From: Bacteroidia bacterium
GTDB lineage: Bacteria; Bacteroidota; Bacteroidia; SpSt-205
DNA length: 64,000 nt
Assembly: GCA_026003215.1 (NCBI GenBank)
Contig: BPGV01000001.1
Location: forward strand, 2,137,729 to 2,201,728
Reading direction: 5' to 3'
Part shown: positions 9,799-52,161 of the stretch, one piece after another
Numbering within the stretch: position 1 is the stretch's first letter
Layout: the number at the start of each line of letters is the position of its first letter
Position numbers and translations under genes: made by a program
Notes under the pieces: model-generated
What the model saw: only the letters and a program-made list of their open reading frames with translations
Told to the model about the DNA's origin: nothing
The model's database searches: none

Positions 9799-9876
9799 GC
9801 GAGGGATAGGGGCAGGTAGTTGAGGAGGCTGAGGTAAATGCAACCATGGGGAGGGGCTGGAGCGTATAAATGATGT

Positions 9877-10077
9877 ATGAGAAAGATAGCGTTAGCCTGG
9901 GTTCCCCTGCTGGGGGTAGCGCTGGCGAAAGCCGAAGCGCAAGTGGAAATCGCAAAAATCCAGGAACAAGTGACGGTGACTTTGGGTCCGGGGAAGAACT
10001 ATCGAGCGAAGCTGGCGCAATCGTATTTTGGGGGGCGAGGGAAGTGTCGGAACTGGAAACGTTTTTGTGGTCAGTGA
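9877..10077 (+). CDS. Small exported protein of unknown function
   Basis: A 66-residue ORF starts MRKIALAWVPLLGVALA and looks like a signal peptide with a probable cleavage after AEA. The predicted mature peptide is about 45 residues and ends with two Cys (GKCRNWKRFCGQ). It ends 4 nt before a strong terminator, which supports a transcript here. A weak -7-like TATAAATG lies 4 nt before the ATG. I recognise no family. A run of six G near 10030 could hide a frameshift, so the C-terminal part is doubtful. Confidence 0.4.
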   Translation: MRKIALAWVPLLGVALAKAEAQVEIAKIQEQVTVTLGPGKNYRAKLAQSYFGGRGKCRNWKRFCGQ

Positions 10078-18565: not shown

Positions 18566-19804
18566 GTGGCAGAGCCCTTGCCGTATGAGATACGCACCAT
18601 AGAGGACTTGGTGCGTCTTTTGCAGACGGAGCCGCAGTGGGTGGAGCGGCTGCGTCAAATACTATTTACTAAGCAGCTTTTACAGCTGCCCGAGGTCTTA
18701 GAGCGCTACATTGCCGCTAACGAAGAGCGGATAGCTCAACTGGATGAGCTTCTGAGGGAGAGTCGGCAACGCTCGGCGCGGTTAGACGAACTTCAAGCGG
18801 AGAGTCACCAGCGCTTGGCGCGATTAGAGGAACTTCAGGCAGAGAATCAGCGGCTATTGGCAGCGAGTCAGCAGCGATTGGCATGGCTGGAAGAGCTACT
18901 GGCGGAGAGTCAGCAGCGGTTAGCCCGGCTGGAGGAGCTACAAGCGGAGAGTCAGCAGCGATTGGCGCGGTTAGAGGAGCTGCAGGCGGAGAGTCAGCAG
19001 CGGTTAGCCCGGCTGGAGGAGCTACAAGCGGAGAGTCAGCAGCGATTGGCGCGGTTAGAGGAGCTGCAGGCAGAAAGTCAGCAGCGGTTAGCCCGGCTGG
19101 AGGAGCTACAAGCGGAGAGTCAGCAGCGATTGGCGCGGTTAGAGGAGCTGCAGGCAGAGAGTCAGCAGCGGTTAGCCCGGCTGGAGGAGCTACAAGCAGC
19201 GAGTCAGCAACGATTGGCGCGGTTAGAGGAGTTATATGCTCAAGGTCAAGAGCGCCTGAATCGTTTAGAAGAGCTCCTCCTCCAAATGCAGCAGCGGCAA
19301 GATAGCTTTGAGGAGCGGCTGGATAACATGACCCGCATTCTCAATGAGCTGGCCGAGCGGGTCACTAAGTTGGAGATAGATGTGGCCTACCTCAAAGGCG
19401 GCTTTATGGAAATACGGGCGATGCTTCGGGCAGGGGCGCTCTTCGGCCGTAACCTACGCAAAGCCCGAGCCGTGGACATGGGCGAGCTGGCCGACCAGCT
19501 GTATGAAGCCATGGAGGCTGGTCGTATCACCGACGAAGACCTCTCTATCCTTCTGGAAACCGACCTTATCGTCCATGGCTTCTCGCGGGATAAAGAAGCC
19601 CGTCCTATGTACCTTACCGTAGAAGTTTCGTATGTCATAGATGAGTACGATGTGGAGCGAGCTGCAGCACGTGCCCGCCTCTTACAAAAGGCTCTCTCCG
19701 TGGATACCATCCCTGTAGTCATAGGTAATCGCCTCACCGCCGAGGCCCATAGCTTGTCCCAAACCTACAAAGCGCAGTGGATACTCGTCAAAAAACCTAC
19801 TTAA
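18566..19804 (+). CDS. Long coiled-coil protein with DUF3782/PD-(D/E)XK-like C-terminus
   Basis: A 412-residue protein in three parts. Residues 1-50 are a short helical head; about 50-265 are a continuous predicted coiled coil; about 270-412 are an alpha/beta domain with VTKLEIDVAYLKG, LVRAG-like helices and LTVEVSYVIDEYDVERA. The last part resembles the DUF3782/restriction-endonuclease-like family, seen mainly in cyanobacteria and thermophiles. That assignment is from memory of the family pattern, and nuclease activity is not shown. The coiled coil contains six identical 14-residue units (LEELQAESQQRLAR, residues 122-205) plus variants. Start GTG. The 3' end overlaps the convergent ubiA-like gene by 4 nt. 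Confidence 0.8.
   Translation: MAEPLPYEIRTIEDLVRLLQTEPQWVERLRQILFTKQLLQLPEVLERYIAANEERIAQLDELLRESRQRSARLDELQAESHQRLARLEELQAENQRLLAASQQRLAWLEELLAESQQRLARLEELQAESQQRLARLEELQAESQQRLARLEELQAESQQRLARLEELQAESQQRLARLEELQAESQQRLARLEELQAESQQRLARLEELQAASQQRLARLEELYAQGQERLNRLEELLLQMQQRQDSFEERLDNMTRILNELAERVTKLEIDVAYLKGGFMEIRAMLRAGALFGRNLRKARAVDMGELADQLYEAMEAGRITDEDLSILLETDLIVHGFSRDKEARPMYLTVEVSYVIDEYDVERAAARARLLQKALSVDTIPVVIGNRLTAEAHSLSQTYKAQWILVKKPT
18929..19222 (+). repeat. Seven tandem 42-bp units inside a coiled-coil gene
   Basis: Units of 42 bp begin at 18929, 18971, 19013, 19055, 19097, 19139 and 19181. They alternate between two synonymous-rich versions (ctggaggagctacaag... and ttagaggagctgcagg...), so the real period is 84 bp. 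The first six encode identical 14-residue peptides. This suggests recent expansion by unequal exchange of an 84-bp pair, always keeping frame. Confidence 0.9.
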
Positions 19805-22753: not shown

Positions 22754-23389
22754 ATGCTTTCTCACCTCTCTGATGAAGAGTTAGTCACGGCCTATCAACA
22801 AAATTCCTCCATGGCTGATGAGGCCTACAATGAGCTGATAAATCGCTATTATATGTATGTCATCCAGAGCTCTCGCTCTACGCTCTACAGGCATAGTAAC
22901 GCCCGTATTTTTCAAGAAGGATTAGATACGCTGGCCCGGGATATTGCCCATGATTTCATGGTAGAGCAAATGCCCCGGGTACTTAGCGCTTACATACCCC
23001 AGAAAAGTAGCCTTAAGACTTGGATTAACCGATGCGTTTCTAACTTCACTATCAGTGCCCTCCGCCGCAGAGAAAATGTACAAAGCTTTGAAGTAGAGGA
23101 TGAAGAGTGGAAAAGTTTTTACATAATCAAAGATGTGTTAGGTGAGGACCTCCATGATAGAGTGCATGACTTAAGAGATATTCAGGCGGTTATTGTTAAA
23201 TATGTGGAAGCTTTGCCTGACCACTATCGCCGGCCGATAGAGCTGCGGTTTTGGCATGAAATGAGTATAGAAGAAATAGCTAAGGCGCTTCGGCTGCCGG
23301 TGGGTACAATTAAGTCGCAACTCAGTCGGGCGATTACCCTCCTGCGACAGCGTCTGAGCGCCGAAGGCCTGGACCAAGAGCTACGCTGA
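22754..23389 (+). CDS. RNA polymerase sigma-70 family factor, ECF-like
   Basis: Alternative sigma factor of 211 residues. Region 2 spans about 5-95 (DEAYNELINRYYMYVIQSS...). Region 4 spans about 150-205 with the helix-turn-helix MSIEEIAKALRLPVGTIKSQLSRAITLLRQRL. There is no anti-sigma gene beside it. It shares a transcriptional direction with the GH3 gene 26 nt downstream. Regulon unknown. Confidence 0.9.
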   Translation: MLSHLSDEELVTAYQQNSSMADEAYNELINRYYMYVIQSSRSTLYRHSNARIFQEGLDTLARDIAHDFMVEQMPRVLSAYIPQKSSLKTWINRCVSNFTISALRRRENVQSFEVEDEEWKSFYIIKDVLGEDLHDRVHDLRDIQAVIVKYVEALPDHYRRPIELRFWHEMSIEEIAKALRLPVGTIKSQLSRAITLLRQRLSAEGLDQELR

Positions 23390-25239: not shown

Positions 25240-25719
25240 TTAGTTGAGACTGAAAAACCCGGGAAGCTGTTTTTTGATTTCTTCTAAGAAGTCTTTCTCT
25301 TGGTGTGTGATATGCAAAAGAAACTGGGCAGTTCCCATAAAAAGGTGGTGGAGCGTCTGCTCTAATAAACGCTGAGAAAAGCCCGGCTCCAGATCTAAGT
25401 GAAAGTCTCCGAAAAAGTGGTTGTTTTGCCAGTATATACGAGGCCAGCGTCGTTGAGCGTTCCAGCTGTTAGCTATTTGGAGAGCTTCTGCTTCATTGGG
25501 CAGGGGGGGGATTTCTTCAAATCGTATCATGACGGTAAGGAGTTCGCCTAAGGTCCCTTGACGCATCAGCACGATGTGAGCTCTGCCCGGAAGGTGGTCG
25601 AAAGCGAAGATGAGATGAAAGTCGCCGTCTTCATCTACGGCGTGCTTGAGGTGCCGTTTCTGTAAGAAGCGGCTGATACCTTGGCTGATTTTTTCTGAGA
25701 TGGTCGGCTTTTCTTTCAT
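25240..25719 (-). CDS. YbjN domain protein, cytoplasmic
   Basis: A 159-residue protein of the YbjN family, whose fold resembles type III secretion chaperones. It shows HAVDEDGDFHLIF, EALQIANSWNAQRRWPRIY and a final helix pair. There is no signal peptide, unlike the four YbjN-like exported proteins at 36.0-43.3 kb. The gene stands alone on the minus strand and has no obvious -7 box. Role unknown; the family is loosely linked with stress and motility regulation in enterobacteria. Confidence 0.8.
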   Translation of the reverse strand: MKEKPTISEKISQGISRFLQKRHLKHAVDEDGDFHLIFAFDHLPGRAHIVLMRQGTLGELLTVMIRFEEIPPLPNEAEALQIANSWNAQRRWPRIYWQNNHFFGDFHLDLEPGFSQRLLEQTLHHLFMGTAQFLLHITHQEKDFLEEIKKQLPGFFSLN

Positions 25720-33930: not shown

Positions 33931-34162
33931 TGTCCTGGGTAGCTCCTATGGAGCCGCGCATGCTTACAGACCTTCTGGGGAACTCGCGCCTTTTATGCAA
34001 CCCATAGCCAGGAAAATGCGTATATATCCATGGTAGCCTACTTGTACGGAAGCACTCATTTTTTTGGCTCCCCAGCGAAAAGGTGAGGCTTTTTTACAAG
34101 GTGCCTACTCTCCTGTAAAGAAGGAGGAGTAAGCTCTCAGGTTGCCTCTCTCTTTTCGCTAT
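33931..34162. other. Intergenic region with a degenerate copy of a 42.1-kb element
   Basis: 232 nt without a gene. Positions about 33940-34027 resemble about 42143-42250 upstream of the third YbjN-like paralogue. The best shared piece is CGCC(T)TTTATGCAACC...GGAAAATGCGTATATAT (33987-34027, shown in part). Both contain an ATGCGTATATA that resembles the start of the paralogue at 36012. A purine-rich AAGAAGGAGGAG lies near 34120. Confidence 0.5.
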
Positions 34163-34954
34163 ATGGAGCAAAGAAGCAATACCATATTTTTTCAGAACCT
34201 TGGAGGGTTGGGGGTTCTCCTCTTTTTTCTGGGAGACCTCCAAGCGCAGGTGGAATTCGTAAAAACCCCACAAAAGGTTTCTGACTCAGTCAGGTATTGC
34301 CTAAATGTCGGTAACCGTTTTTTGGATTCCAGCCGGTACCAGGAAGCCTTAGAGTGGTATAACCAAGCTTTGGCCCTAATGCCTGATTATGCCCCTGCTT
34401 TATACAACCGGGGCTTGGCGCTCCTCAGCATAGGCCGCTATCGGGAAGCCATAGCAGACTTTGATGCAGTCGAAACTACTTTTTCGGATGATCCTTACCT
34501 GTATCTGTGGCGTGGTTTAGCGTACATGGAAGTTGGTCGTCATGAAGCAGGTATAGAAGACTTTGGCCGGGCCATAGCCCTCAACCCCAAGTTTATCTAC
34601 GCCTATATTTCCCGAGGCAACGCCCGAGTCGAACGAGACCAGTACGACCAAGCCGAGCAAGATTTTGCGGCTGCTGGCCGCATAGACCCTATCAACCTGG
34701 CGCTCTTCTATGGGCGTGGGGCTCTCGCCATGGCCAGAGAACGCTACTTAGAGGCTATTGAGATCTATACCAGAGGCATAACTTTCTATCCTAATGCACT
34801 GGACCTGTACCTTATGCGGGGTGTTGCTTACAACAAAATAGGACTCTATGCAGAAGCTTTGGCTGATTTTCAAACTATCCTCCAGAAGGACCCTACCCAT
34901 ATTCCGGCTAGGGACCTTCTCGAGGCCATTCGTCGGCAGTATGACCTTGAGTGA
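34163..34954 (+). CDS. Exported TPR protein
   Basis: A 263-residue protein with an N-terminal signal peptide (LGGLGVLLFFLGDLQA, cleavage near LQAQ). About six tetratricopeptide repeats follow (about 45-255), including YQEALEWYNQALALMPDYA, YREAIADFDAVET and YAEALADFQTILQKDP. Predicted periplasmic scaffold for protein-protein contacts. ATG 34163 is chosen over the in-frame TTG 34142 since it places the signal peptide correctly. It opens the 34-43 kb run of exported proteins. No enzyme motif. Confidence 0.85.
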   Translation: MEQRSNTIFFQNLGGLGVLLFFLGDLQAQVEFVKTPQKVSDSVRYCLNVGNRFLDSSRYQEALEWYNQALALMPDYAPALYNRGLALLSIGRYREAIADFDAVETTFSDDPYLYLWRGLAYMEVGRHEAGIEDFGRAIALNPKFIYAYISRGNARVERDQYDQAEQDFAAAGRIDPINLALFYGRGALAMARERYLEAIEIYTRGITFYPNALDLYLMRGVAYNKIGLYAEALADFQTILQKDPTHIPARDLLEAIRRQYDLE

Positions 34955-35131
34955 TATACAACCGTATTCCTTCCTCTTTGGGAAGGCGCATCCGATGAAA
35001 GGCCGCGTGGTTTCGGCCTTTTGGGTCACAGTAGCTTCTCATGGTGTTTTTTCGGCTGAGCAGCTCTATCCTTCCTTTCGGCACAAAGAACCCCCTAAAA
35101 TCCCTCCCGGCGGCGGAGGCATGAGAATACT

Positions 35132-35749
35132 ATGATGCGAGATAAAAACCATATACCTACAAATGCTATGACTAAGGTAGATATGTCCTTCTGGAAGGTT
35201 TACCGTTTCGTCTCTTTGATGGTTTTGGTGTTGTTTGTAGTATTGGTATTGTCGGTGCTGGCACTGCCGATCTTATTCTTTGGGGTCCTTGATATCGACC
35301 CTTCCTCTGAGGTATCTTTGATTTTATGGCTATTTATCGCAGTTATTGGTTTTATTTCATGGTTTCTTTATTACAAATATTTGGCTCCTGCAGGGAGTGC
35401 TCATAAGATAATTCAATATGCTTCAGAGAATGGTCGGTGGGTGGAGGCTAAGTTCGTACGCATACAGGATAGGCGCGTTCGAACTTCCCGTTCCTTCCTC
35501 TGGTATGAATATGCTTCTGTGTTAGAGTTCGAGGTAGAGGGGGAGCGGGTGGTTTTTCATGTACATAAACATGCCGATGAGGTTTCGGCTTTCCCCCAAA
35601 AAGGCGAATCTATAACGTTTTGGCAGGTGCCCGCTTTGCCTTCCATAAATGACAAGATTCTTTCTAACATTAGATATAACTACTTCTGGTTCAGTTATAC
35701 AAGTCGGTTTTACTACCTCTGGATTTCTGCCGCAAATAAGAAAAAATAA
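35132..35749 (+). CDS. Integral membrane protein, DUF3592-like
   Basis: A 205-residue protein with two membrane helices near the N-terminus (about 25-60 and 65-90: LMVLVLFVVLVLSVLALPILFF and LILWLFIAVIGFISWFLYY, read in parts). A soluble beta-rich domain follows (GRWVEAKFVRIQDRR ... VLEFEVEGERVVFHVHKHADEVSAFPQ, in parts) that resembles DUF3592-type proteins. Base composition is visibly AT-richer than the flanking genes, a hint of transfer. ATG 35132 is the first; ATG 35168 is also possible. Function unknown. Confidence 0.65.
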   Translation: MMRDKNHIPTNAMTKVDMSFWKVYRFVSLMVLVLFVVLVLSVLALPILFFGVLDIDPSSEVSLILWLFIAVIGFISWFLYYKYLAPAGSAHKIIQYASENGRWVEAKFVRIQDRRVRTSRSFLWYEYASVLEFEVEGERVVFHVHKHADEVSAFPQKGESITFWQVPALPSINDKILSNIRYNYFWFSYTSRFYYLWISAANKKK

Positions 35750-36011
35750 AGTTGTACTTGTGTCTCCTTGTCAGGGCTATTGTTTTTTGACAGGCTGTCG
35801 TGCGGGATGCGCAGGCGAGGTAAAGATAGAGGGGATATGCACTCTCTGAGGGTGCAACCTTTTGTAAGGCTAAAGCGTATTTACTCTATCATGACCCAGA
35901 TGTATAGGAAGGTCCTATCTTTTTGCACAGGCGAAGGGAGAGAGCCTTTCTTTACTTCAAGAGGACCTTTGTATAAGAGGTCCGGGGGTCTGGCACTCTT
36001 TCCCGTAGCCT
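35750..36011 (+). other. Intergenic region before the YbjN-like pair
   Basis: 262 nt with no convincing gene or -7 box. A small inverted repeat GGACCT...AGGTCC lies near 35963-35983. It separates the membrane protein from the first exported YbjN-like gene. Confidence 0.4.
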
Positions 36012-36488
36012 ATGCGTACTTATACTCATATAGGGGTCCTCTTCATAGTAGGAGCGCTTAGTTTGGATAGGGCCTATAGCCAGCATCAGCGGCTCAAAAG
36101 CCTCTTAGAGGAAACGGGTCTCAAGTATTCCTTGGATAATGCCAAGAACTTTAAGCTACGTTTTTCGCTGGAAGAGAGCCGCTCGCAGGAAGTTATCATC
36201 ATAAATCCTACGGATCAAATACAAGAGGAGCCCATAGTGCACATTTTTTCGGTAGGGTTTGAGGGCACTGAGGTTCCGTCAGACTTAATGCAAAAAATGC
36301 TTTCCGAAAATCGCTCCCGCAAAATAGGTAACTGGGAACTCATGCTGGTGGGTAATACTATTTATGGATTTTTTAGTATAAAAGCGCCTCTTTCTGCTTT
36401 GGATGCCAATCTACTTAGGATACTCTGTCAGGTAGCGGCTCTAACTGCAGATGAGTTTGAAAAAGAGGTTATGGGCGTGGATAACTAA
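36012..36488 (+). CDS. Exported YbjN-like protein, paralogue A
   Basis: A 158-residue protein with a signal peptide (HIGVLFIVGALSL, cleavage near AYSQ). The domain of about 130 residues has the pattern LKYSLDNAKNFKLRFSLEE, IVHIFSVGFEG, RKIGNWELM and FFSIKAPLSALDANLLR. The order DGDF-like strand, long edge strand, W-containing strand and C-terminal helix fits a YbjN-type chaperone fold. It is the first of four paralogues in this cluster; the next starts 16 nt after its stop. No catalytic residues are apparent. YbjN membership is my inference from pattern. Confidence 0.7.
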   Translation: MRTYTHIGVLFIVGALSLDRAYSQHQRLKSLLEETGLKYSLDNAKNFKLRFSLEESRSQEVIIINPTDQIQEEPIVHIFSVGFEGTEVPSDLMQKMLSENRSRKIGNWELMLVGNTIYGFFSIKAPLSALDANLLRILCQVAALTADEFEKEVMGVDN

Positions 36489-36504
36489 TACAATCGTATA
36501 GCCT

Positions 36505-36987
36505 ATGTTTTCTCTCAAAAGTAGCCATGTAGGGGCACTGGCTTTCGTCGGTGCTATAAGCATGGGATGGGCCCAAGAAGCCCAGATAAAACGCGTACTC
36601 TCCCAAGCTCAGCTGGAATATAAAGTGTTGAACTCAGGCAACTTCGCCTTAGTTTTCCAGACAGAGGGTGGCCGTACGCAAATAGTCTTTATAAACAGCC
36701 AGATGGAGGACCTAAAAGGATACCCCATTATAAAGCTCTGGTCTGTGGTCTATCAAGGTAAAACCCTGGATAAACTGGTATTAGGACGCCTGCTCTTGTA
36801 TCCTGCCCAATATAAAATCGTAGGCTCCGAGATAACGGAAGAAGAGGGACAGGTATTTGGCGTCTATACCATAAAGATACCGTTTTCTGCTTTCACACCG
36901 AATATGGCTAAGGCACTATGCGAGATGTTAGCGAATATGTCAGACAAATCAGAAGCTGAGTTGCGGAAAGGGGCGAACGATTTTTAG
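36505..36987 (+). CDS. Exported YbjN-like protein, paralogue B
   Basis: A 160-residue protein with a signal peptide (HVGALAFVGAISMGWA, cleavage after WAQ). It shares with A, C and D the core LEYKVLNSGNFALVF, TQIVFINSQME, PIIKLWSVVYQGK, and the C-terminal KIPFSAFTPNMAKALCEMLA. It is the most divergent of the four in its middle (LYPAQYKIVGSEI). It lies 7 nt before the PorE-like gene, so co-transcription is likely. Confidence 0.7.
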   Translation: MFSLKSSHVGALAFVGAISMGWAQEAQIKRVLSQAQLEYKVLNSGNFALVFQTEGGRTQIVFINSQMEDLKGYPIIKLWSVVYQGKTLDKLVLGRLLLYPAQYKIVGSEITEEEGQVFGVYTIKIPFSAFTPNMAKALCEMLANMSDKSEAELRKGANDF

Positions 36988-36994
36988 GGGTAAT

Positions 36995-38947
36995 ATGAAA
37001 ATTATTGGCTGGATAGTTTTACAGGGTCTGGTCTGGGCGCAGGTAGGGAGCCCGCCGCACGAGAAGTACCTTTCAGCGGTGGCTGCGGCTCGGCGTCGGG
37101 ATACGGTGCAAGCTATACAGCTTCTCAGAGAGGTGCTGACAGCCCAGCCGTCGCACCTACGAGCGGCGGTGTATCTCGGTCGCTTGTACTTGGATAAGCG
37201 ACAATATAGCGCTTTGCGGGCAATAGGCTGGTCACTTGTACAGCAGGGGCCTTCTGCGGCTGTGGCACAAGGGTGGGGGGTATTTTTCTTGGGGTCAGCG
37301 TACACTGCTGCACAGCAGGAAGACTCGCTGGATATGCTGTGGCGACGTTTTGTACTGCCATACCGGCGCGACTCGTTGTATATTCTTAGGAGCGTTTCAA
37401 AAGCTGCTGAAAAAGGCAAGATCTCTGCAGCCGCTTTACAGGGGATAGCTTCAAGCGGTTTACTCGTCTCGGATACGGGGCTCCTGCCAGTGCCTGTGCC
37501 GTTTTTCCCCAGCAACCTGGGACCAAATGTAAATACTCCGTACTCGGAATACTTCCCCAGCCTCACTGCAGATAGTCGCCGGCTCTACTTTACTACGACG
37601 CGGCCTAAGCCAGGGCGTGCCCTTCCCTCTGGAGAACAGTCTGATGAAGACATTTACTGGTGTGAGGGGGAGGCTCGTGCGGTTACTTGGGGACCTCCTA
37701 CCGCGCTCCCCATCAACACAGATAAACATGAAGGGGCTTCATTCTTCTCTTCTGATGGCCAGACGGTTATTTTTGGCATGTGCCATCTCCCGGAGGGGTA
37801 TGGGGATTGTGATATGTATGTGTCTCGGCTACATGGTACGGTTTGGTCTAAACCGGTTAACCTGGGTCCGGTCATAAATACGAAGTACTGGGATACGCAA
37901 CCTTGCCTTTCTGCGGATGGAAAACGACTCTATTTTGCATCGGATAGACCTGGCGGCATGGGAGGGGCAGATATTTGGTACAGCGATTGGAAGGATGGGC
38001 AGTGGCAGCCTCCCGTCAATCTCGGTCCCCCTATCAATACGAGAGAGGACGAGTATAATCCCTTTATAGCGGCGGATGGCAAAACGTTGTACTTTGGGTC
38101 TACAGGACATCCCGGCTATGGCGGAAGAGATATGTTCTTCTCGGTGCTTACCTCCTTGGGTTGGTCGGAGCCTAAAAACTTAGGATATCCTTTCAATACA
38201 GAGAAAGATGAGAAGTCCTTATTCGTGGATACTCGGGGAGAATATGCGTATGTAGCCTTGGAGCGGCCAGAAGGGAAAGGGCGTGAAGATATTTATGTGT
38301 TTCGGCTGTGGCCGGAGATAAAGCCTGTGGGATTAGCGACCTATGTACGGGGCCAGGTGATAGATGCTAAGTCGCGTGCGCCCTTGGGCGCAACCATTAA
38401 GGTGGTAGATATAGAGAGCCGAGATACGGTTCGTTCGCTCACTTCTAATCAGGCAACCGGAGAGTTTATATTATCGCTGCCGTTGGGGCGGCGGTATGCT
38501 TGTTTTGCCGAAAGTCCAGGGTATCTTTTTTATAGTGGGCATTTTGATCTGAGCCACACCGATACGGTGTATAACTTGCTCATACCGCTGCAGAAGGTAG
38601 AGAAGGGCGCATCCCTTACGCTGCGGAATGTATTCTTTGATTTTGACAAGGCGACCTTACGGCCGGAGTCAGAAGTAGAGCTGCGGGAAGTGGCTCGCCT
38701 CCTGCGAGAGAACCCTCGTTGGCGCGTAGAAGTACAAGGCCATACCGATAGCATAGGTACGGCTTCGTATAACCAGACTTTGTCTCAACGGCGGGCGGAG
38801 GCGGTGCGAACCTACCTTATCGAGCAAGGGATAGCCGCTGAACGCATTACAGCTCGGGGCTACGGTTTTACTCGTCCAGTGGCTACCAACCGCACCGGAG
38901 AAGGACGAGCTCTGAATCGTCGTACAGAGATTGTATTTGTAGAATGA
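36995..38947 (+). CDS. PorE-like TPR/beta-propeller/OmpA envelope protein
   Basis: A 650-residue exported protein (signal IIGWIVLQGLVWA). A TPR-like helical part lies at about 20-150. A WD40/PD40-type propeller spans about 165-435 with repeated YFPSLTADSRRLYF, QPCLSADGKRLYFASDRP and YNPFIAADGKTLYFGS. A carboxypeptidase-regulatory-like domain follows (about 445-530, VRGQVIDAKSRAPLGATI). The C-terminus is an OmpA peptidoglycan-binding domain (about 540-650, FDFDKATL, EVQGHTDSIG, NRRTEIVF). This order equals that of PorE of type IX secretion, but without a lipobox Cys. It starts 7 nt after paralogue B and ends 3 nt before the CHAT gene. Confidence 0.85.
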   Translation: MKIIGWIVLQGLVWAQVGSPPHEKYLSAVAAARRRDTVQAIQLLREVLTAQPSHLRAAVYLGRLYLDKRQYSALRAIGWSLVQQGPSAAVAQGWGVFFLGSAYTAAQQEDSLDMLWRRFVLPYRRDSLYILRSVSKAAEKGKISAAALQGIASSGLLVSDTGLLPVPVPFFPSNLGPNVNTPYSEYFPSLTADSRRLYFTTTRPKPGRALPSGEQSDEDIYWCEGEARAVTWGPPTALPINTDKHEGASFFSSDGQTVIFGMCHLPEGYGDCDMYVSRLHGTVWSKPVNLGPVINTKYWDTQPCLSADGKRLYFASDRPGGMGGADIWYSDWKDGQWQPPVNLGPPINTREDEYNPFIAADGKTLYFGSTGHPGYGGRDMFFSVLTSLGWSEPKNLGYPFNTEKDEKSLFVDTRGEYAYVALERPEGKGREDIYVFRLWPEIKPVGLATYVRGQVIDAKSRAPLGATIKVVDIESRDTVRSLTSNQATGEFILSLPLGRRYACFAESPGYLFYSGHFDLSHTDTVYNLLIPLQKVEKGASLTLRNVFFDFDKATLRPESEVELREVARLLRENPRWRVEVQGHTDSIGTASYNQTLSQRRAEAVRTYLIEQGIAAERITARGYGFTRPVATNRTGEGRALNRRTEIVFVE

Positions 38948-38950
38948 GCT

Positions 38951-41900
38951 ATGTTACGGTGTAAGTATGTATATCAGATCGTAAGCTTGGTGGGGCTAAG
39001 CTCCTTATGGGCGCAAGGGCTTTGGGCAGAAGCAGAGAAGGCTTTTTTCCAAGGCGAGTATGCGCAGGCGCTTAGTTTGTACGACTCCTTGGGGCGCACG
39101 GCAGAAGGGCGTCGTGTGCCGGCCCTGCGACTTCTATCGCGACAGGCGGAATGTCATGTGCAGTTAGCGCACTATGAGGTGGCCCAGCGCCTCTGCGACG
39201 AAGGTCTGCAAAAAGCCCAAAGTGCTCGGGATACTATCAGCCAGGGATTATTTCTGCGCGCACAAGGACTCCTTTACACGAAACTAAACCAGTTTGAGGA
39301 GGGCTTGAAAACGCTCTCCGAGGCTGTGTCCTTACTCGGTAGAGATACGGTATTTCGCTATATGACCCTCCTCACGATAGCTACGGTTTACCATGAAACA
39401 GCTCAGTACGCCATTGCAGAGAGTCTTTATAGAGCAGTGGCAGATTTCTATAAGCTACACTTTGGAGATAAAAGCTTACAATATAGTAAGGTACTGCATA
39501 ATCTTGGAGTTTTATATCTTTATCAAGAAAAGTACGATATGGGCATGGATGTTCTTGGTGAGTCGGCAGATATATTCAAAGAAGTGGTTGGAGAATATTC
39601 ATTCTATTATGGCAGTACCATTATGAACTTAGCCATAGCTTTTGGGGGTAAAGGGCGGCTATATGAGTCGGACTCGCTGTATCGGATAAGCATAGAGGTG
39701 TTTAGACGCGTGTTGGGAGAAAGGCATCCACTGTATATTGCCGGGTTAGCGGGCTTAGCCACTGCGCGAATGAATCAAGGGCGGCTCGGAGAGGCAGAGC
39801 AGCTCTACCTACAAGCCATACAACTATGGGAAGCCGCTTCTCTGCCCCTCACGCATTCCTCTTACCTTACCCTTTGGATGAACTTAGCGGGCATCTATGA
39901 ACAAAAAGGTCAATATACACAAGCTGAAAATATATATCTCAAAGTATTAGATGGTAGAAAAAAGATATTTGGGGATTCGCACCCTCTTTTAGCGTCTATT
40001 TATCTAAATATCGCTCATAACTACGCGAATCAGGGTTACTTAGATGAAGCGAGCAAACTCTGCTATATGGCAGAGGCTATACTTAGACAAAATGAAGCTA
40101 CGGCGACGCCTGATTATGGTCTTGTACTGCTCAATTTAGCCCAACTGAATGAACAAACAGGGCGTTTATCGGTGGCTGACTCCTTCGCCAGTTACGCGCA
40201 GGCGATATTTTCTATGAGCTTAAGCCCCCAACATCGGTACGTTCGTTCCGCTTGGCTATATCGGAGCGAGCTGGCACATAAACTTGGACGAGAATCCGAG
40301 GCGGACTCGCTCTACGCCTTGGCCGAAGAGGCTTATAGGCAAGCTACTGGCGTGACTTCTCTGGCCTATGCAGCGGTGCTGCTCCATCGTACCCTAATGG
40401 AGATAGATAGAGGAAGGTATGCTCAGGCCGAGTCTCTTATGCATAAAATCCAAAGTATTTATAATACATTCCAGCTTATACCTACACATGACAACTATTT
40501 ACAATTTAGGTACTTACAAGCTAAGATGTACGCCCGACAGGGGAAGTTTTCCCTTTCAGACTCAGCTTATATGAGTCTCATAAACCAGACTTTTAATCGC
40601 ATAGCATCAGATTTTCCTGCTCTTTCAGCTCAGCAACGCATCGGTTTGTTGAATAGTTTGTTGGGATTTATTCTTCCTGTACAGCTATATTGTATTCGAC
40701 AGTCGGCACGGAATCCTGTTCTTGTTGAGATAGGGTATTTTCTGGCTCGGAGTATAAAAGGGTTAGTACTTACTTCTACGGAGCAGCTGCGGCATGCGGT
40801 GGAGCTGTCTGGGGATAGTGTGGCTTTGGGGCTTCTGGCCGAGTGGCGTACCCTGAATGACATGTATGCCTATTATTTGAGCACAGAAGCCTATGAAGCA
40901 GCTGACTCTATCCGACGTATAGCGTATAGGGTAGAAAAAAAGATTGCGGAACGGGTTCCTGCGGCGCAGTTACAGTTACCGCATCCCCTCAAGGACCAGG
41001 CTATGCCTACCTTGCGTAAGGGGCAAGCTGTCGTGGAGGTGGCTCGGGTGCCTTATGGAGACTCGGTAGTGTATGCGTTTTACCTGCTTACGCCGCAGCG
41101 GAAGGACGTGCGTCTGCAGCTTTTCACACGCTGGGTGGATCCCGATTGGGAAGCGCGCATGAATACCGCCTATGAGATATTTCGTTCGCCGGGGGCCGAA
41201 GTGACAGGCTATACCTATAAAAATCTGTGGGCTTTCATAGATAGTCTGCTACCTAAGGGCACGAAGGAGGTCTTTTTTGCCCCAGATGGCGTGTATTATC
41301 GGGTGAATGTGGCTTCCCTGTATGATGCGGATAGCCGTGCCTATGTAGCGGATAAGTATGCGGTTCGGTATGTAGCGACGAGTCGGCGGCTCTTAGACAC
41401 GCGTCCGAAGCCTGCTTCTCGAGGGCCGGTGGTGATAGGGAATCCCGCTTTTGGCAGTGAGCCGTCCTCAGGGGAGCAACGTTCGGTGCGGAGTTTTCGG
41501 GCATTTCCCTATGGGATACCTGCGCTGCCGGGGGCTGAGGCTGAAGCGCAAGCGGTCGCGACGCTTTTGGGGACGCAGCCGGTTATCGGTGCAGCTGCTA
41601 CCGAAGCTTATGTGAAGGGAATAACTTCCCCGAGGGTCCTCCATATAGCTACCCATGGATACTTTTTGGGGGAAGGCCTGCATGTGGCTACGCAGGCGGG
41701 CTTGCTCTTTGCCCAAGCGCAGCTGTGGGATAGCTTAGCCCCAGCCTTAGGTGAGGAGGATGGCCGCCTCACCCTCCAAGAAGTACTCAGCTTGAACCTT
41801 CTGGGTACGGACTTGGTGGTGCTCTCGGCCTGTGAGACGGGCTTAGGTGCCGTACATGCCGAAGGCCTATATGGCTTGCAACGGGCCTTCTTAGAGGCAG

Positions 41901-42100
41901 GCGCTCAAGCGGTTATAAGTACCCTCTGGCAAATAGACGATATGGCTACCAAGGCGCTAATGGAAAAGTTTTATGCTTACTGGCTTCAGGAAGAGCAAAA
42001 ATCTGAGCTAATCTACCAAGCTTTTGGTAAAGCTGTGGATGACCTACGTAAGAAGTATGCGTCTCCGTATTACTGGGGAGCATTTATCCTAATGGAATAG
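38951..42100 (+). CDS. Exported TPR-CHAT caspase-like protein
   Basis: A 1049-residue protein with a signal peptide (IVSLVGLSSLWA). Residues about 25-620 are TPR repeats (e.g. AEQLYLQAIQLWEAA, AENIYLKVLDGRKKIFGDSHP), a superhelix for partner binding. The C-terminal CHAT domain (about 690-1049) has the caspase-like dyad intact: His902 in LHIATHGYF and Cys961 in VVLSACETGLG, then ISTLWQIDD and the terminal YYWGAFILME. CHAT domains are cysteine proteases of clan CD; gasdermin and Craspase partners are known examples in other systems. Here the signal peptide puts it in the periplasm or outside. It is tightly linked to the PorE-like gene (3-nt gap). Confidence 0.9.
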   Translation: MLRCKYVYQIVSLVGLSSLWAQGLWAEAEKAFFQGEYAQALSLYDSLGRTAEGRRVPALRLLSRQAECHVQLAHYEVAQRLCDEGLQKAQSARDTISQGLFLRAQGLLYTKLNQFEEGLKTLSEAVSLLGRDTVFRYMTLLTIATVYHETAQYAIAESLYRAVADFYKLHFGDKSLQYSKVLHNLGVLYLYQEKYDMGMDVLGESADIFKEVVGEYSFYYGSTIMNLAIAFGGKGRLYESDSLYRISIEVFRRVLGERHPLYIAGLAGLATARMNQGRLGEAEQLYLQAIQLWEAASLPLTHSSYLTLWMNLAGIYEQKGQYTQAENIYLKVLDGRKKIFGDSHPLLASIYLNIAHNYANQGYLDEASKLCYMAEAILRQNEATATPDYGLVLLNLAQLNEQTGRLSVADSFASYAQAIFSMSLSPQHRYVRSAWLYRSELAHKLGRESEADSLYALAEEAYRQATGVTSLAYAAVLLHRTLMEIDRGRYAQAESLMHKIQSIYNTFQLIPTHDNYLQFRYLQAKMYARQGKFSLSDSAYMSLINQTFNRIASDFPALSAQQRIGLLNSLLGFILPVQLYCIRQSARNPVLVEIGYFLARSIKGLVLTSTEQLRHAVELSGDSVALGLLAEWRTLNDMYAYYLSTEAYEAADSIRRIAYRVEKKIAERVPAAQLQLPHPLKDQAMPTLRKGQAVVEVARVPYGDSVVYAFYLLTPQRKDVRLQLFTRWVDPDWEARMNTAYEIFRSPGAEVTGYTYKNLWAFIDSLLPKGTKEVFFAPDGVYYRVNVASLYDADSRAYVADKYAVRYVATSRRLLDTRPKPASRGPVVIGNPAFGSEPSSGEQRSVRSFRAFPYGIPALPGAEAEAQAVATLLGTQPVIGAAATEAYVKGITSPRVLHIATHGYFLGEGLHVATQAGLLFAQAQLWDSLAPALGEEDGRLTLQEVLSLNLLGTDLVVLSACETGLGAVHAEGLYGLQRAFLEAGAQAVISTLWQIDDMATKALMEKFYAYWLQEEQKSELIYQAFGKAVDDLRKKYASPYYWGAFILME

Positions 42101-42330
42101 CGTATGCGGGGTGATGGTCAATCGGGTCGCAGGTTGTGGGCTCTCCTACGAGCCGAGCTTGGTCAAGATATCAGGAGAACAGGCCAAGAAAGTAGGCTTA
42201 TAAGAAGTGGCGCCCTTATGCAACCTTGTAGGGAAGTTATGCGTATATATTTGGTTACTCTTGCTATCTTATTCCTTTTCCTTCATCGGGAAAGGAGGGG
42301 GTGGAAGGGTGCAATTGCTGCGTTATGCTT
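42101..42330 (+). other. Intergenic region, possible paralogue 5' remnant
   Basis: 230 nt between the CHAT gene and paralogue C. It holds the second copy of the element seen at 33940-34027. From 42239 an open stretch encodes MRIYLVTLAILFLFLH, which looks like a signal peptide without a mature domain. This could be the 5' remnant of a further duplicated copy. Confidence 0.4.
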
Positions 42331-42810
42331 ATGAGTACCTACTCATACCTTAGGACCCTCCTCATAGTAGGAGGCACATTTCTGAGCCCGCTTGTGGCAC
42401 AGAATCAGCAGATTAAAAAGCTTTTGGACAAAGCCGGATTGAAGTATGAGGTAACCGAAGGCGGTGACTTCAAGCTTACCTTTAACATCGGAGATGGGCG
42501 GTCTCAGCTTGTATTTATTGAGGGCTCTATGGAAGAGATGGGGGGCCAGTCTATTGTAGAGATTTGGTCACCAGGCTACAAGGGAGCGGAGATATCCGAA
42601 AAGACACTCGCCTATCTTTTAGTAGAAAGTGGTAAAAAGAAGGTAGGTGCATGGGAGGTTATGTCCGATAATGACAACATATATGCGGTTTTCATGGTGA
42701 AGGTTCCTCTGGCTTCTCTCTCGCCAGGCTTTTTGAGGTCAGCTTGTGAAGGGGCCGCACTTACGGCAGATAATGCAGAAAAAACATTCTTGCAAAGCGA
42801 TGAACTCTGA
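42331..42810 (+). CDS. Exported YbjN-like protein, paralogue C
   Basis: A 159-residue protein with a signal peptide (LRTLLIVGGTFLSPLVA, cleavage after VAQ). Core: LKYEVTEGGDFKLTF, RSQLVFIEGSMEEM, SIVEIWSPGYKGAEIS, KKVGAWEV, VKVPLASLSP. Closest to D; both share IVEIWSP.YKGAEIS. The DNA around the signal peptide (CTCATAGTAGGAG) is near-identical to that of paralogue A, showing recent shared ancestry of the 5' ends. ATG 42331 is used; the upstream in-frame codon at 42301 is an artefact of the leader. Confidence 0.72.
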   Translation: MSTYSYLRTLLIVGGTFLSPLVAQNQQIKKLLDKAGLKYEVTEGGDFKLTFNIGDGRSQLVFIEGSMEEMGGQSIVEIWSPGYKGAEISEKTLAYLLVESGKKKVGAWEVMSDNDNIYAVFMVKVPLASLSPGFLRSACEGAALTADNAEKTFLQSDEL

Positions 42811-42817
42811 AAATATT

Positions 42818-43306
42818 ATGCGTATGAATACGAGAGCTTTTTCGATTTTAGGTGTCGTTTTACTGATTGGTGGAGGGCTTTTTGCCCAGAGTCCTAATCC
42901 CAAAATTAAGCGTATTCTGGATCAGGCGCAGCTTAAGTACCAAGTGGATAAAGATGGGGACTTCAAGATGACCTTTGGGTTGGAGAATGAGCGTTCTCAG
43001 TTGGTCTATGTGATGTCCGGTACGGAGGAGTTTTCGGGGGAGCCCATAGTAGAGATATGGTCTCCTGCGTACAAAGGAGCGGAGATTTCCCAAGAGACGT
43101 TGGTGCAATTAGCGGTGGATGGCCAGAAGCGGAAGATTGGGGGGTGGCAGCTTACGACCGGCTCGGAGACTATTTATGCGGTGTTTAAGGCGAAGGTGCC
43201 GCTTGCTGCGCTCACGCCTGAGTTTATGCGGGCGGTATGTGGGGGAGTAGCGAGCGTAGCCGATGAGATGGAGCAAGCGGTGATGCATGGGTCGGATGAC
43301 TTTTGA
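42818..43306 (+). CDS. Exported YbjN-like protein, paralogue D
   Basis: A 162-residue protein, signal peptide FSILGVVLLIGGGLFA (cleavage after FAQ). Core: LKYQVDKDGDFKMTF, RSQLVYVMSGTEEF, PIVEIWSPAYKGAEIS, RKIGGWQL, FKAKVPLAALTPEFMRAVC. The DKDGDF loop matches the EDGDF of the cytoplasmic YbjN protein at 25.2 kb, the best internal support for the fold assignment. It starts 8 nt after C; ATG 42824 is an alternative. It ends the cluster, followed by a GC-rich hairpin. Confidence 0.72.
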   Translation: MRMNTRAFSILGVVLLIGGGLFAQSPNPKIKRILDQAQLKYQVDKDGDFKMTFGLENERSQLVYVMSGTEEFSGEPIVEIWSPAYKGAEISQETLVQLAVDGQKRKIGGWQLTTGSETIYAVFKAKVPLAALTPEFMRAVCGGVASVADEMEQAVMHGSDDF

Positions 43307-43434: not shown

Positions 43435-43505
43435 TGCCCGGTCGTCTAACGGTAGGACAGCAGATTTTGGGTCTGCGTGTGGGGGTTCGAATCCTCCCCG
43501 GGCAA
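43435..43505 (+). tRNA. tRNA-Gln (anticodon UUG)
   Basis: 71-nt cloverleaf. The acceptor arms TGCCCGG and CCGGGCA pair over 7 bp with discriminator A. The anticodon stem GCAGA/TCTGC encloses TTTTGGG with TTG in the anticodon positions. The T arm has GGTTCGAAT. The CCA tail is not encoded. The prs GTG follows 4 nt after the 3' end. Confidence 0.93.
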
Positions 43506-51313: not shown

Positions 51314-51375
51314 AGGGTTTCGCCGTAGAGTAGACGGGAACCTTTGAACAAGCGTTTTTGGTTTGCAAACTAAAT

Positions 51376-52161
51376 ATGCGCATGCGAATAGCTGTATTTT
51401 GGCTTGCTGTGGGGGTATGGGCCTTGGTTGCATTTAGAGAGGCCAACTCTAATCAACCGCCTGTGGGCTATACGGGCGCTCCAGGCGATAACGGCACCTG
51501 CCGAAGCTGCCATGGCGGAGGAACAGGCGCTCCTACTATCTCCCTCACCATGAATGGACAGACTCCTACCACTTACATCCCCGGCGGCCCTTCAGTACCT
51601 GTGCAAGTGACGGTAAGCCATCCTTCTGCCAGCATGTATGGTTTTCAGGTCACGGTGCTTAGCAGCCAGGCAGGACAAGAAAATACCCCTAATCAAGGGC
51701 TGAGCACTACGGGCGCCACAGGCGTTGTCCTCCAGACGGGTACAGGCGGACGCAAGTATGTAGGACATAATCCCGCGTCGGCCACAGGTAGTTGGACATT
51801 CAATTGGACGCCGCCCGCTACGAATGTGGGGCCTATCACCTGGTATATCGCCGCTAACGCTGCGAATGGAAACAGTACTACCAGCGGTGATGCGACCGGC
51901 ACCCTTACGGTGACCCTTCAGCCGGATGTCTCAGCTGCCCTCTCCGATATAAAGCGAGAAAAGCTTTTTACGCAGGTGGGCGGCATGGTTTCTTTCTTGG
52001 CTGAGGTGGAAGAGGTGGTTTTATACACTTTGGATGGGCGGCGGGTAGGTCGGTGGGAGAGGCCTGCTGCGCTGGGGCTGCCGGGGCCTGGGCTATACTT
52101 TTTGCGCTTGCGCAGGGGAGGAGAAGAGACGATACACCGCCTCGTCTGGCTGGGCGAGTGA
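51376..52161 (+). CDS. T9SS cargo with CxxCH and choice-of-anchor-V-like domain
   Basis: 261-residue exported protein. After the signal (IAVFWLAVGVWALVA) comes PVGYTGAPGDNGTCRSCHGGG, given in parts: a CxxCH site at CRSCH that could bind c-type heme. A beta-sandwich follows with GYQV-like strands and WTFNWTPPATNVGPITWYIAANA (in parts), which matches the choice-of-anchor V/Reeler-like family. The last 75 residues (VVLYTLDGRRVGRWE...GPGLYFLRLRRGGE) match a type A T9SS sorting domain. So it should pass the outer membrane through type IX secretion and be surface-bound or released. ATG 51376 or 51382. Confidence 0.8.
   Translation: MRMRIAVFWLAVGVWALVAFREANSNQPPVGYTGAPGDNGTCRSCHGGGTGAPTISLTMNGQTPTTYIPGGPSVPVQVTVSHPSASMYGFQVTVLSSQAGQENTPNQGLSTTGATGVVLQTGTGGRKYVGHNPASATGSWTFNWTPPATNVGPITWYIAANAANGNSTTSGDATGTLTVTLQPDVSAALSDIKREKLFTQVGGMVSFLAEVEEVVLYTLDGRRVGRWERPAALGLPGPGLYFLRLRRGGEETIHRLVWLGE

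Follow-up and report, generated by a model that had tools for sequence, protein, structure and literature searches.

CHAT peptidases act in defence with dedicated substrates, as Craspase does with Csx30 (PMC9729208). The fold of AmyR and YbjN is described as acting through protein-protein interaction (PMC5398634), and TY-chaperones have been described as well (PMC9503650). Genes of the type IX secretion system (T9SS) are controlled by SigP in Porphyromonas gingivalis (PMC4800418), and in Flavobacterium psychrophilum a CGT-box motif of extracytoplasmic function (ECF) sigma factors serves T9SS/secretion and envelope genes (PMC9723704). The locus described here lies in a 64,000-nucleotide stretch of a Bacteroidia genome (contig BPGV01000001.1), called the window throughout. 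It comprises eight genes, which encode a TPR-repeat protein (TPR), a membrane protein (MEM), four small YbjN-like proteins (YA, YB, YC and YD), a PorE-like protein and a TPR-CHAT protein. The new observation is that the TPR gene, the YA operon and the YC-YD pair each carry the promoter element TGCAACC-N16-CGTAT. These related promoters on three units hint at a lineage-specific envelope quality-control set, not at a conserved new system.

Three units with a common promoter element

The original prediction of eight co-directional genes holds, and all eight open reading frames (ORFs) lie on the + strand at the positions in Table 1. The stop-to-start gaps are 177 nt (TPR to MEM), 262 nt (MEM to YA), 16 nt (YA to YB), 7 nt (YB to PorE-like), 3 nt (PorE-like to TPR-CHAT), 224 nt (TPR-CHAT to YC) and 7 nt (YC to YD). 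The claimed core spacing of 3-16 nt is correct for the run YA-YB-PorE-CHAT, and YC-YD forms a second tight pair, but it does not cover the three gaps of 177, 262 and 224 nt. Because of the latter, there are at least three transcription units besides the membrane protein gene.

An alignment of the intergenic stretches 5' of TPR, YA and YC shows GCAACC-N15-GCGTAT in all three at constant spacing. The shared element was not found at MEM. Separate, unrelated promoters for each gene had been named as an outcome that would speak against a joint system; the promoters are separate but not unrelated, as three units share the element. A scan for sigma-70 consensus promoters and terminators gave no excess over shuffled sequences, and the sole Rfam match is a tRNA at 43435.

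The promoter pattern was defined on the window first and searched in the relatives afterwards. In seven genomes of the genus, GCAACC-N16/17-CGTAT has 48 matches, compared with 14 for a reversed control pattern. A position weight matrix (PWM) was trained on 20 sites picked outside the cluster, mostly about 10 nt before the start codons of exported-protein genes. The bases flanking the search pattern are conserved in these sites (T before it in 17 of 20, A after it in 18 of 20). At 16 bits or more, the matrix finds the element before 5/13 YbjN-like genes, 1/26 CHAT genes and 3/464 other genes, one of the last being the window TPR gene. In the relatives alone, two of five exported-YbjN units have it against 3/464 other genes (Fisher p 9e-4), a comparison that involves small numbers and relatives that are not independent of one another. 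The element stands 5' of the YbjN-like genes in genome G009 and of each tandem YbjN-like copy in G007, and it directly precedes one TPR-CHAT gene of G007.

The sites show three features of an ECF sigma regulon, namely a common -35/-10 element, a fixed spacer and enrichment over the control. With its AAC-type -35 and CGT-type -10, the element has the form of an ECF sigma factor promoter, which points to ECF control. The window units are probably switched on together by such a factor. A sigma-70-family protein at 22754-23389 (+) has region 4 (49 bits) and orthologues in all genomes of the genus, and the own genome has only one further match, so this protein is a candidate reader of the element. 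Autoregulation of its gene through the element was considered and rejected, because in both the window and G002 the sigma gene is preceded not by the element but by TATCTTTG/TATATTTG housekeeping -7 boxes. The cytoplasmic YbjN gene at 25.2 kb may or may not belong to the same regulon: its 5' site scores 20.8, but in the majority of its orthologues there are only boxes of the TATATTTG type.

Genus-wide, the element occurs as TGCAACC-N16/17-CGTATA (seven genomes, e.g. loci L138-L174). Most of these sites precede genes for exported proteins, and one in G002 precedes an rpoD-like gene (L159). Three tandem exported YbjN-like genes of G007 (L095:5913-7902) form 701-nt units that each have the element, and the last two are identical at 697/701 positions. 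An exported peptide family of about 66-76 aa is encoded in the window at 9839-10077 (+) and at L147, L149, L125:7326-7538, L155, L162, L166 and L167, each gene about 10 nt downstream of a TGCAACC/CGTAT element. The family has the pattern MRKIAL..VPLLGV.LAKAEA...GKCR.W.RFCGR with two conserved Cys, and the window copy reaches no Pfam or NCBIfam cut-off.

Table 1. Genes, predicted catalytic codons and promoter elements of the locus, with the cytoplasmic YbjN gene of the window
Feature	Position	Strand	Basis or score
Promoter element TGCAACC-N16-CGTATATAT, ~135 nt 5' of TPR gene	33996..34027	+	PWM 27.0 of 28.8
Exported TPR-repeat protein, 263 aa	34163..34954	+	ORF, domain search, hydropathy
Membrane protein MEM, 205 aa, weak DUF3592-like match (E 0.2)	35132..35749	+	
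Promoter element TGCAACC-N16-CGTATTTAC, 5' of YA-YB-PorE-CHAT	35853..35884	+	PWM 21.8
YA, exported YbjN/T3SS-chaperone-like, fast-evolving extra copy	36012..36488	+	
YB, exported YbjN/T3SS-chaperone-like, fast-evolving extra copy	36505..36987	+	
PorE-like exported TPR-PD40-CarboxypepD_reg-OmpA protein, 650 aa	36995..38947	+	
Exported TPR-CHAT protein, 1049 aa (CHAT domain, residues 757-1048)	38951..42100	+	
Codon of predicted catalytic His902 (IATHG)	41654..41656	+	Invariant in 21 homologues
Codon of predicted catalytic Cys961 (LSACETG)	41831..41833	+	Invariant in 21 homologues
Promoter element TGCAACC-N16-CGTATATAT, 5' of YC-YD	42219..42250	+	PWM 28.8, maximum
YC, exported YbjN/T3SS-chaperone-like, first of pair also present in relatives	42325..42810	+	
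YD, exported YbjN/T3SS-chaperone-fold, second of pair	42818..43306	+	Structure predicted
Cytoplasmic YbjN, kept in most relatives, outgroup of exported family	25240..25719	-	Pfam YbjN over cut-off
T3SS, type III secretion system.

Domains, folds and origins of the proteins

Seven of the eight products had been said to carry signal peptides, and hydropathy agrees with this. Each N-terminus combines a hydrophobic stretch with a cleavage site of the A-Q type, so these products are predicted to be exported, and MEM is by the same measure a membrane protein. The N-terminus of the cytoplasmic YbjN has neither a hydrophobic stretch nor a cleavage-like site.

The proposal of an exported CHAT protein stands. 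Its C-terminal CHAT domain (Pfam PF12770) scores 204 bits against a cut-off of 24, and TPRs are also present. The His902 and Cys961 dyad is intact and unvaried among full-length homologues. It is predicted to be catalytic, and the protein would be a cysteine peptidase. Structures similar to the predicted model (pLDDT 82) are kinesin-light-chain-type TPRs, separase and the TPR-CHAT protein of Craspase (PDB 7zoq). The own genome has seven CHAT genes, of which this is one.

A longer TPR-CHAT protein of about 1350 aa occurs about once per genome in the genus, as at L102:8075-12130 (-) and L124:4897-8958 (-). Its neighbourhood of ribosomal protein bL9-like and ExbD/TonB-like genes is common to the own genome and G004. 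If CHAT has a conserved function in the genus, this longer protein is more likely to carry it than the window protein. In four relatives (G003:C68, G004:C12, G008:C210, G009:C2), CHAT copies broken or split by stops or frame changes lie alongside intact ones, which indicates fast gain and loss of CHAT genes.

The four small proteins are related to one another, with identities to YD of 45% (YC), 31% (YB) and 34% (YA). Their naming as YbjN-like was not borne out by Pfam on the window copies, which give 12.2 bits or no match to YbjN (PF10722) against a cut-off of 22. YC matches YbjN at E 0.22 and YD matches TY-Chap1 at E 0.0056, both under the cut-off, and YA and YB match nothing. The name is upheld by the predicted fold, by a profile comparison that joins the family to the cytoplasmic YbjN, and by a distant exported homologue in G376 that lies narrowly over the YbjN cut-off (22.1 bits). 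A sequence search of solved structures with the family gave no match. The AlphaFold2 model of YD, built with 12 homologues, has a pLDDT of 88 and consists of a helix, three strands, a helix, two strands and a helix. Its best Foldseek matches in the PDB are DR_1245, SycT, the HopA1 chaperone SchA, AmyR, ExsC, CesT and YbjN, with probabilities of about 1 and moderate TM-scores of 0.4-0.7. YD is thus predicted to have the class I T3SS-chaperone fold. Together with the descriptions of AmyR and the TY-chaperones, this model makes it reasonable that the exported family may work like a partner- or peptide-binding chaperone.

Most forks of the small-family tree are weak. In it, the closest grouping of YD is with the second members of the G009 and G002 pairs (support 88/85). 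The branches of YA and YB are 2.0 and 2.3 long, compared with 0.3-0.9 for YC, YD and other genus members. On these sequence grounds, YC-YD appears to be the ancestral exported pair, and YA and YB appear to be fast-evolving extra copies.

The PorE-like protein has the architecture of T9SS PorE, namely TPR, PD40, CarboxypepD_reg and OmpA domains. The original prediction is right in this respect, but the protein scores 290 bits against the NCBIfam PorE cut-off of 600, and 315 of 620 bits against the CHU_0125 model. Across 13 genomes of the group, the PorE cut-off is reached by no gene. The PorE model has 15 matches in the own genome, and the best elsewhere (G000:C1:1806964) is above the window protein. 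The latter is 52-56% identical to a gene of which nearly all relatives have a single copy and which lies at G000:C1:1408976 in the own genome, and it is the longest branch within this orthologue group. The tree suggests a lineage-specific extra copy of a gene that is single in relatives. Long branches and single-copy orthologues in relatives make the YA-YB-PorE-CHAT run look like an assembly of diverged extra copies, with frames and key residues intact. A constant association of the extra PorE-like copy with CHAT was also considered. The copies near CHAT remnants at G004:C6 and G008:C210 fall apart from the window copy in the tree, where the G008 piece joins the ordinary orthologue, so the association was dropped.

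Two other genes of the window were recorded. A Choice-of-anchor V domain protein (88 vs 42 bits) is encoded at 51358-52161 (+), and its C-terminus resembles, by eye, a T9SS sorting domain. A long tandem repeat protein with LEELQAESQQRLAR units is encoded at 18566-19804 (+), where overlapping frames are open.

Distribution in relatives and competing readings

The survey covered 395 Bacteroidia genomes, with mechanical ORFs as gene calls in the relatives, several of which are fragmented metagenome-assembled genomes (MAGs). The exported YbjN-like family is confined in this set to one bacterial family and one distant genome. It occurs in 6 of 11 genomes of the genus (own included), one genome of a sister genus and G376; the remaining YbjN matches are cytoplasmic YbjN. 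A single-protein contig scan gave matches in only two Bacteroidia MAGs, SKW103 and SKW77. CHAT is present in 141 of the 395 genomes, fragments included in the count. G009 and G007 have a common neighbourhood of an exported lipoprotein, the YbjN-like gene and a short-chain dehydrogenase.

The preferred explanation, held tentatively, is an ECF-controlled, lineage-specific periplasmic set of chaperones and a protease, built from duplicated genes. An envelope stress or secretion signal would lead the sigma factor to transcribe the TPR gene, YA-YB-PorE-CHAT and YC-YD, each tight run as one transcript. The YbjN-like proteins, with a partner-binding chaperone fold, would hold unfolded exported polypeptides in the periplasm, perhaps by binding peptides. 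Through its OmpA domain, the PorE-like protein would fix the assembly to peptidoglycan. The TPR-CHAT cysteine peptidase, in contact with these proteins, would cleave captured clients for quality control or surface-protein maturation. A bolder form sees a new kind of periplasmic system of one Bacteroidia lineage, in which exported T3SS-chaperone-fold proteins deliver clients to a peptidoglycan-tethered exported TPR-CHAT protein under one ECF sigma factor. It is rather unlikely. A limited literature search turned up no paper on an exported TPR-CHAT protein.

About equally likely as the chaperone/protease set is a chance neighbourhood, in which three ECF-type units came to lie side by side after duplication, in a genus where such promoters are frequent at exported-protein genes, and the proteins do not cooperate. 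Several results weigh for it and against the cooperating set. The window gene order was found in no other genome searched. The neighbours of exported YbjN-like genes in G009, G002, G008, G007, G001 (where the gene is at a contig end), G011 and G376 include no CHAT and no PorE-like gene. G003 has eight CHAT matches, some maybe fragments, and no exported YbjN, several genomes have multiple CHATs without any exported YbjN, and G376 lacks CHAT but has exported YbjN. The two families are thus decoupled both in which genomes have them and in where they lie. Other CHAT genes of the genus have no exported YbjN gene as a partner, and the CHAT paralogues of the own genome lie among housekeeping genes, with one tandem pair. 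The envelope module proposed at first, with co-occurring exported CHAT, PorE-like and YbjN-like genes, therefore fails, as its neighbourhood is not kept in relatives. The element is found at only one of the 26 CHAT genes and precedes many unrelated exported-protein genes, so it points to shared conditions, not to a shared machine; a shared promoter element does not mean shared function. The chance reading is in turn opposed by the tight YA-YB-PorE-CHAT run and by the element's having been found independently at genes of both the YbjN-like and the CHAT family in relatives.

A role as a T9SS accessory is improbable. The PorE-like and CHAT proteins would process T9SS cargo, with the YbjN-like proteins as cargo chaperones, which suits the PorE-like architecture and the known role of ECF sigma factors at T9SS genes of P. 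gingivalis (PMC4800418) and F. psychrophilum (PMC9723704). The PorE-like protein, however, is far under the PorE cut-off and under another gene of the own genome, the PorE model matches 15 genes there, and the cluster has no recognised T9SS core component. Well behind and very hard to sustain is the toxin-antidote system first suggested, or a regulated suicide system, with the exported CHAT protein as toxic enzyme and the YbjN-like proteins as inhibitors or substrates: a multiplied small partner does adjoin the peptidase, and Craspase/Csx30 is a precedent of a defence CHAT with a dedicated substrate (PMC9729208), but up to eight CHAT matches occur without exported YbjN, one genome has YbjN without CHAT, many CHAT copies have no YbjN-like neighbour, and PADLOC gave no defence-family match for CHAT, YC or TPR and only OmpA/MotB-type matches for the PorE-like protein.

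The chaperone/protease set would matter in two ways. The cluster, together with a promoter motif that occurs at members of both families in relatives, offers concrete candidates for what CHAT cleaves or works with and for the stress that induces it. A further implication is that the type III chaperone/YbjN fold may also serve outside the cytoplasm.

Comparison with known systems

The window TPR-CHAT protein and the known TPR-CHAT peptidases (Craspase Csx29, separase-like) are alike in their N-terminal TPRs, C-terminal CHAT domain and His/Cys dyad. In contrast to these, the window protein has a signal-peptide-like N-terminus and no CRISPR partner, and its match to the Csx29 model is marginal (21.8 vs 300 bits). 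The small proteins have a predicted fold like that of the YbjN/TY-chaperone superfamily, which includes Escherichia coli YbjN, AmyR, DR_1245 and the class I T3SS chaperones. They differ from it in their predicted N-terminal signal sequence and in falling under the Pfam cut-off. The PorE-like protein shares the TPR, PD40 propeller, carboxypeptidase-regulatory and OmpA domains of PorE (PG1058) and CHU_0125, but it is under both cut-offs and appears to be a lineage-specific extra copy. The Bacillus subtilis SigW promoter is TGAAAC-N16-CGTA. The window element resembles this promoter and the CGT-box promoters of F. psychrophilum SM6 in its AAC-type -35, CGT-type -10 and spacer of 16-17 nt, and differs from them in its fixed TGCAACC -35.

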